A stretch of DNA of 64,000 nucleotides, from contig NC_134834.1 in the NCBI RefSeq assembly GCF_004210375.1, positions 160,227,290-160,291,289 on the forward strand, written 5' to 3'. Origin of the DNA: Tachypleus tridentatus. Lineage: Eukaryota > Arthropoda > Merostomata > Xiphosura > Limulidae. A program made the translations under genes and the position numbers. This document shows positions 3,514 through 6,500 of the stretch, one piece after another; position 1 is the stretch's first letter, and each line of letters opens with the position of its first letter. The notes below the pieces were generated by a model. The model searched no databases, had not been told where the DNA came from, and worked only from the letters and a program-made list of their open reading frames with translations.

Positions 3514-6500
3514 CTGAAAACACAAGTGTAAGGAATGCATCACAGTAGATACTAAAAACACAAGTTTAAGGAATGCATCACAGTAAATACTGAAAACACA
3601 AGTGTAAGGAATGCATCACAGTAAATACTGAAAACACAAGTGTAAGGAATGCATCACAGTAAATACTGAAAACACAAGTTTAAGGAATGCATCATGGTAA
3701 ATATTGAAAACACAAGTGTAAGGAATACATCACAGTAGATACTGAAAACACAAGTGTAAGGAATACATCACAGTAGATACTGAAAACACAAGTGTAAGGA
3801 ATGCATCACAATAGAGTCTGTATAAACTAAAGATAAAAAACAACCTATATGTATCACCTCAGGAACCAACAACTAGAGTGATAGCTAAAGCTTGGGATGT
3901 CTTAAAGCAACACTAACAACAATGAAAAACATTTTCTTCTAAATACGAAAGCATTTAGAATGTGAAAAAAGTGCTATTTGTTATAGAATTAATTAAAACG
4001 AAATATTAGCATAGCTTCAAATAAGTGTATAGGTAGTAGGATTGAAGCATCTATAGCAAAAACAAACAAACCTCAGTGTGGAACGAAGGTATTGATAACC
4101 CGAAGATCCACCTGTGCCAAGTTGCTGGGATCCAATCATTCTCTGGACCATTTGCACATGATTGTCTATGAAACACGAATTAAAACAGTTGTGTAAACTG
4201 ACCTGTCTTTATACCCTCGACAAAGATATAATATTTTTGTCAAGTTTCACTGTCTTAAAACCATTTTGAATAGATCACCATATGGAGAACGTGGCAATAT
4301 ATATGCATAAAACAAATTCGAAGTTTTTCCCTTTAAACTCGAATAAGTTCAATTTATAATCTAGAAAAACGAACTCGGTGGAAAGAAAATAAAAATAGGG
4401 TCTGTTAACTCAAAATAATCTGCCATTTATTTATTTATTAATATGAGTATTATTATTGGTATGCATAGTTTAAAATAAATAAATGTTTTGAGGTATACAA
4501 AAATATCTTACAACGCCACTTGGTGATGAGAGAGTCAATGTCCATCAATAGTTTCAGTAGGTGATAGGGTTGATTAAATAGGGGCTCGTCCCTGTAACAA
4601 GATATCATCATAGCTCCTTGAAATGCCTTATGGGTAAAACGACGCTCTCCTGAAAAAAGAAATGAATCGCAAAATCTAACGAAAGTTCTGTTAGGCAAAA
4701 TATTGGCATTCAGTTAGAAAGACAAGTTTTTATTCTCTATAGGACTTGTTTTATCCAGTTCTTATAACAAAAAATGTGCATAGTTTTAGAGTTTCGACAT
4801 AAATCAAACGTTTATCAGATATATAGGAATGCATTATCAAATTTAAACACCGTCTAATTTAATGTTATTCGTGACAAATGTTCTACTTAAGTTAATGATA
4901 ATCTATCCATTGAATATTTTTACAAACTAATGAATGACCTTTCAGAAAAAATAAAAGATAAATCTTGCAATGAAACAACTTCCCTTTGATAATGGTTATG
5001 AAAAAAATATTAACTTTCTAACATTTGATTTGTTGCTGAACACAAAATGCACAACAGGTAATTTCGCTGTACCCACCGCATGAATTTACATCGAATTTTA
5101 ACTTTATGAATCATAAAGTTTACCGCTGAACCACTAGCGGGTTGTGACTTGGTTTGTGTGGAATTTCGAGCAAAGCTACATGAGGATTATCTGCCCTAGT
5201 TGTCCCTAATTTAGCAATGTAAGAGGGAAGGTAGCTAGTCATCACCATCCACCGTCAACTTTTGGGCTACTCTTTTATCAAAGCCCTCACGGCTGAAAGG
5301 GCAAGCATGTTTGGTGTGATGGTGATTCGAGCCCGCAACCATCAGATTACGATGGGCCTTTGCTGGGCCAGGGGGTTGTGTATTAGATATAGTTATCTTT
5401 ACTGGTCACCATTGGTTACAAAAGCCACTTTTTAAAATCATTACGAATATGAATGGTAACACTTTATTCCACAACAGCCTTTAAAATATTACTTGTCAAA
5501 AATGCAAAACGTCAGTCTAAAACACTATTTAAATGCATTTTTATTATGGAATACAACACGTAAGTTCAGACAATCGCTAAAATCGTTACCAATAAGAAGT
5601 CAAAACTCTTAAGTCTTTGAAAACGTTATCAGCTCAAAGTACAACATTTCTATTGGAAGCAAGCTGTTAAAGAACATTAAAACATTAACATTACCTCTAC
5701 TAGCTCACAGCTCACCCCTTCAATATACTTCCAAACGTTTTAAATTTTATATTTCACAATAGTATGCAGTCTATTCCCAAATAGTGTTCAAGTTTTTAAC
5801 TTTTTATTATCAAAATTCCATTCAAATGCAACTTAAAAGTTAATTTCTCTTATAAAAATCGAAGATAATTTCTTGCAATATTTCTTTTAATGCACCTGTG
5901 AAATTTATTCGTGATGACGCACCATTAGTATTTGAATACCTGCTTTCACAGTCTGACTCGAAACCGCCTTGTTTTGAGTCGCCACCGAGTTAGATGAGGC
6001 AATATTTGTTGTTGGCCTATAGAAAACTACGGTTTTATAAGTTTTATAAAAAGGAGTCAAAATACTATTCGTGGTTCAAAATATGATTATTTCATTTTTA
6101 ATAGCTAACGAGTATTTGATAAAGATAAAACATGCTTCCTATAAAAGCCAAATTAAGGCCTAATAATAACTTATTTACTTAAATAATATTAAATACTATC
6201 AATAAATCCCATTCAAACATGAGATATCCCTACATCGTCTTTGATTCAAGCAAACAACACATAACCCACAATAACATTTGATTGTTCTGTTCTGAGTTTC
6301 GCGAAAAGCTACACAAGATAAATGCCTAATTGATAAACTATAGGGAAGGCAGCTAATCAACTCCACCCACCCTCAATTCTTGGACTACATTTTTACGAAC
6401 GAATAGTGTGGTTGACCGATACATGATAACGACCCTATGGCAGAAATTGCGAGCACGTTTGATGATGCAAGTCAAGAGTCCTAGCTACCAGACCCAAAAA

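Follow-up and report, generated by a model that had tools for sequence, protein, structure and literature searches.

Tandem arrays over two splice sites of a TDO gene: a mirage-like pair of minisatellites

Why should the acceptor of a gene's last exon stand at the end of a row of near-copies of itself, and what should be made of a second such row, built on a donor, in the same gene? The question is raised by the gene for tryptophan 2,3-dioxygenase (TDO) in the window, that is, the whole stretch of 64,000 nucleotides analysed here (C10:160227290-160291289), within a genome of 2.17 Gb in 205 contigs. The features concerned, in window positions, are as follows.

3321..36155, minus strand: TDO gene, from start to stop codon, with 12 exons placed
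3321..3513, minus strand: last exon (exon 13), stop codon at its end
3513..3810, minus strand: 38-bp minisatellite of 8 units, exon-side edge at the splice junction (TRF, unit alignment)
3514..3515, minus strand: real acceptor AG of intron 12, in the last unit
3704..3705, minus strand: dead acceptor, third unit from the 5' end, CAA for CAG
3514..4071, minus strand: intron 12 (558 nt; the array fills about half), donor GAG/GTTTGT
4072..4165, minus strand: exon 12, Pfam PF03301 match
32244..32589, minus strand: 31-bp minisatellite of 11 units (TRF, unit alignment)
32571..32636, minus strand: exon 4, real donor at its low end

On translation, exons 1-8 joined and exons 10-13 joined each give an open reading. 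Exon 9, which is short and expected at about 12.6 to 7.8 kb, was not found there by homology search; the numbering that makes the last exon "exon 13" fits the 12 placed exons plus this one short missing exon. A stretch near 10.6 kb was considered as exon 9 and rejected, as it looks unrelated to TDO. Within the gene, positions 10580-10760 hold an open frame that by eye looks like a mobile-element or unrelated coding fragment. Intron 7 is apparently a GC-AG intron (GTTCAG/GCGAGT, 14373-14374), and the donor of intron 12 (4064-4071) looks weak with its GAG/GTTTGT, the second TDO copy, on contig C6, reading GAG/GTAGGT there. Two 52-bp minisatellites with differing consensus units adjoin the gene downstream, at 1-725 (13.9 copies) and 1170-2388 (23.4 copies).

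The acceptor array was called by TRF as a 38-bp repeat of 7.8 copies with 93% matches (3513-3810). An earlier note on this DNA had described a 38-bp array touching exon 13 and carrying eight acceptors; the contact is confirmed by TRF and by unit alignment, which place the array edge no more than 1 nt from the junction, and there are indeed eight units, but AG is kept in seven of them, the third from the 5' end reading CAA. The consensus unit on the gene strand is TATCTACTGTGATGCATTCCTTACACTTGTGTTTTCAG, and every unit has a pyrimidine-rich stretch. The real acceptor reads TTGTGTTTTCAG/TGACC (CAG/TGACCGC), with the exon starting at 3513, and exon and unit have only the first base, T, in common. 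Across the eight aligned units, 15 of 304 positions depart from the consensus; unit 7 has TAG instead of CAG, and five units, the real one among them, agree in all of their last 18 nt. By eye, TGAT and TTAC are candidate branch points in the real unit, where the distance from their A to the end of the AG is 27 and 16 positions, respectively. To judge from these motifs every unit may hold its own branch point, and a unit could thus come near to a complete 3' splice site module. A search of the whole 2.17-Gb genome that allowed up to 3 mismatches gave 8 matches to the unit, each of them in this array, while the reversed unit, used as a control, gave 0 matches at the same threshold. The array was accordingly rejected as a piece of a dispersed repeat.

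The donor array that the earlier note had placed in the same gene is equally real (31 bp × 11, 32244-32589). Each unit joins 18 nt from the end of exon 4 (TRF gives 19) to the 13 nt that open intron 4; the real donor reads CTAAGG/GTAAGAG, and GTAAG is present in all 11 units. Departures from the consensus are found at 18 of 341 positions. Their distribution is uneven, with 1 of 198 positions varying in the part taken from the exon and 17 of 143 in the part taken from the intron, mostly as variants common to several units. Conversion from the coding copy, or a small number of mutation events, could explain the near-invariant exon part.

The reading that we regard as likely is that the acceptor array is a locally born minisatellite of the 'mirage' kind known from amphioxus, lying over the 3' splice site of intron 12, that the donor array arose separately in the same way, and that the terminal copy is the one used. 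The acceptor array would have begun with one 38-bp duplication whose right breakpoint fell at the intron-exon junction or 1 nt past it. Slippage, unequal exchange or conversion would then have brought it to eight units, as its near-identical units with common variants suggest; these are consistent with copy turnover. The exon side of the growing array would have stayed put because it is coding. The exon-proximal copy would still be used, aided by its place next to the exon, with the upstream copies neutral or used at a low level, and the donor array of intron 4 would have followed an independent course of the same type. The pair is probably neutral, reflecting tolerated minisatellite growth in a repeat-rich genome; since this genome is so rich in minisatellites, some overlaps with splice sites are to be expected by chance.

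How much chance can account for was assessed at three scales, beginning with the gene itself. Six arrays of at least 2.5 copies and a period of at least 10 were placed at random in the TDO gene, where two of the six catch a splice site against 0.12 expected (P(≥2) = 0.0056); it is important to note that this and the other TDO P values are after the fact, the gene having been chosen for its pair of arrays. One of the six, at 36007-36065, is an AT-rich imperfect repeat (19 bp × 2.9, 70% matches) 6 nt inside intron 1, which lies near the exon 1 donor without containing it. Leaving it out, i.e., with five arrays, gives P 0.0054 and the same conclusion. For both long arrays to fall on splice sites, the random-placement P is 0.0005, and when edges within 10 nt are counted the tally rises to 3/6 (P 0.00035).

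As TDO had been picked for its pair, a separate sample was taken, comprising 60 loci around myosin and kinesin exons (194 kb) with 24 arrays of at least 2.5 copies, a number slightly inflated by loci that overlap or are near-duplicates (L051/L064, L052/L063, L047/L048, L076/L077). The exons, 103 in number, came from self-comparison of each locus, or from the family match itself where that comparison failed, and the splice sites from a purpose-written consensus scorer, some of whose picks will be wrong. One further exon was placed by eye once its array was already known, so that results are given with it (191 sites) and without it (189 sites). With the by-eye exon, a splice site is caught by 1 of the 24 arrays (1.33 expected); 2 lie within 10 nt against 1.65, and 2 within 25 nt against 2.33. 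Without it, the capture count is 0/24 against 1.28, with 1/24 within 10 nt (1.59 expected) and 1/24 within 25 nt (2.25 expected). In this small sample (60 loci, 24 arrays, permutation), no excess of arrays at splice sites was found. The claim of the earlier note that such a pair is too unlikely for random placement is thus not established, the small P within TDO coming from a gene selected for its pair and the sample standing at 1/24 against 1.33.

Two of the sampled myosin loci hold arrays close to an exon. At L026:934-1166, the first unit of a 43-bp × 5.4 array is a myosin exon donor (..VVVIR/GTAAGAACAG by eye), with its edge no more than 1 nt from the exon end. At L030:1679-1929, a 21-bp × 12 array ends 7 nt before a minus-strand myosin exon, and AG is absent from its units. 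In two of three cases, namely the TDO acceptor and the myosin donor of L026, the edge of the array is at most 1 nt away from the junction.

At the scale of the genome, where a count can be made without exon calls, three exact copies of a donor motif at gaps of 20-50 were counted for two motifs, with the reversed motifs as controls; these matches count units, not arrays. AGGTAAGT gives 3409 triples against 1419 for its reversed control (single copies, 92449 against 81715), and AGGTGAGT gives 2032 against 923 (single copies, 52744 against 51907), so that the ratio of triples to singles exceeds the control 2.12-fold and 2.17-fold, respectively. The strands are unequal, with the triples split 1359/2050 for AGGTAAGT and 1457/575 for AGGTGAGT, and if the smaller strand is doubled the ratios drop to 1.69 and 1.23. 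At least 79 of the 1457 AGGTGAGT triples come from one place on C2. Because huge arrays swell one strand and matches count units, the 1.2- to 2.2-fold excess is a lean only: the counts lean weakly towards donor motifs in arrays being commoner than chance genome-wide. A very long array of roughly 56-bp period, with AGGTGAGT in most units, occupies C2:85052509-85057729, and perhaps extends beyond.

These results bear most directly on the first alternative, namely that arrays start preferentially at junctions through transcription- or splicing-linked breakage (R-loops, RNA-templated repair or template switching that ends at the junction), which would set their edge to the base and make them a genome-wide class outside lancelets. 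The two TDO arrays at splice sites and the third within 10 nt are what it would lead one to look for, as are the L026 array, which starts 1 nt inside the myosin exon end, the L030 array 7 nt off its exon, and the excess of triple donor motifs over reversed controls. However, the sampled loci stand at chance level with or without the by-eye exon, and huge arrays bias the motif counts, as the unequal strands show. We therefore consider such seeding unlikely. The earlier note had offered seeding at exon edges and tolerance of redundant splice signals side by side; seeding is not established, whereas tolerance, which would fit the exons found open and the one AG lost, as drift would allow, is the better reading of why the arrays are retained.

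A second alternative assigns a role to the repeated acceptors, which would tune the amount of full-length TDO or buffer mutation of the real site, with the array kept by selection. Translation of the possible products is informative here. The statement that an upstream AG adds 38n bases and shifts the frame is correct for n not a multiple of 3; the in-frame acceptor (n = 3, +114 nt) also fails, because there is a stop inside the extension, and an in-frame isoform through three extra units was rejected on that ground. In all, the native C-terminus is lost with each of the six upstream acceptors that have AG (6/6), the ten extra donors of the intron-4 array lead to an early stop in 10/10, and the TDO protein is obtained from the terminal copies only, in both arrays. 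As splicing to any upstream AG removes the native C-terminus, selection should disfavour it. An altered or truncated protein from upstream use could in principle lower output, and the last 18 nt shared by five of the eight units, including the real site, would fit such a role. But one unit lacks AG and another has TAG, the second TDO copy shows a single acceptor, and no upstream site yields the native protein, so a functional array appears improbable, even more so than seeding at junctions.

The second copy also bears on the age of the arrays. On C6, the same phase-2 intron is found with the acceptor core TTTTCAG/TGACC present once and without an array, and exon 4 is followed by a single donor, AGG/GTAAGG, again without an array. 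The three arrays of at least 2.5 copies in that copy fall between exon matches; there is also a 2-copy AT-rich repeat about 30 nt beyond one exon match. Since the two copies agree in intron, phase and acceptor core, with no array there on C6, the splice site most likely predates the array. The acceptor unit, matched nowhere else at up to 3 mismatches, marks the array as local, and the lone acceptor on C6 makes it most likely that the array formed after the two copies had separated. The simplest reading of the two copies would have both arrays form after that separation, at splice sites that already existed. Arrays older than the gene copies are disfavoured by the single sites at both places on C6, although the arrays may instead have been lost from that copy. 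That the array came first and the gene then adopted one unit as its splice site is highly improbable, for while adoption would also leave the real site as the last array unit, the C6 copy, which lacks the array, agrees with this one in intron position, phase and acceptor core.

The preferred reading, of locally born minisatellites over pre-existing splice sites, has precedents. In amphioxus, minisatellites over exon-intron boundaries, termed 'mirages', are described in the passages available from two reports for Adh3, troponin C, the globins BflGb6 and BflGb9, and PGBD5; according to the same passages, AG or GT is kept in many but not all repeats, regular splicing is reportedly undisturbed, and one of them suggests that mirages are common to cephalochordates in general (PMC3087553, PMC3902484). 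The TDO arrays resemble those described there in having tandem copies of a boundary, whether 5' or 3', next to the authentic one. Both arrays touch a real boundary and include the authentic boundary as one unit, and many but not all units keep the dinucleotide (AG in 7/8 acceptor units, GTAAG in 11/11 donor units). The TDO pair is thus a real, well-formed mirage pair and belongs to a kind already known from amphioxus. It differs in the gene, seemingly in the animal group, and in having donor and acceptor arrays in one gene; moreover, the acceptor units hold at most 1 nt of exon, and splicing was examined in amphioxus, going by those passages, whereas TDO is known from DNA alone.

In the literature passages at hand mirages are tied to lancelets, while the TDO case lies in a seemingly unrelated large animal genome. 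Together with the myosin donor array, it suggests that mirages are a side effect of genomes rich in minisatellites and not peculiar to lancelets. Among the matches listed by a search of open-licence literature that included horseshoe crab, no title or abstract opening described a comparable splice-site array. Arrays of this kind lend themselves to asking how the spliceosome chooses among sequence-identical sites that differ in position only.

A human case is also relevant: Turri et al. reportedly described, in 1995, a minisatellite with multiple splice donors in IFI6 (6-16). Downstream repeat units of IFI6 are said, in the part of a later source available, to serve as donors, giving three mRNAs (PMC4526556). 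The units of the TDO intron-4 array likewise carry donor sites; unlike those of IFI6 as described there, the ten extra donors lead to an early stop, and although extra sites exist in TDO (10 donors and 6 acceptors), none gives the native protein. Human duplicated genes contain internal tandem repeats with units of about 30 bp in about 4 copies, some at exon-intron boundaries, as an excerpt of one paper states (PMC2812944). The repeats described in that excerpt are exonic or give rise to new introns, whereas the TDO arrays lengthen an existing intron.

Duplication multiplies splice signals also in the Rogers model of intron gain by tandem duplication and in dual-specific splice sites, as outlined in extracts of two papers (PMC4974935, PMC10809524). 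In intron gain of that type, relatives without the duplication would be expected to lack the intron; here no new TDO intron is seen, the C6 copy having the intron without an array, at the same position and in the same phase. Elsewhere in the genome, three arrays on C1 (C1:1080908-1081634, C1:3240494-3240594 and C1:110281395-110281558) are built of units reading ..ACAG/GTAAGT.. or ..GCAG/GTAAGT.., in which acceptor-like and donor-like halves stand back to back and recall the dual-specific sites of polyubiquitin.
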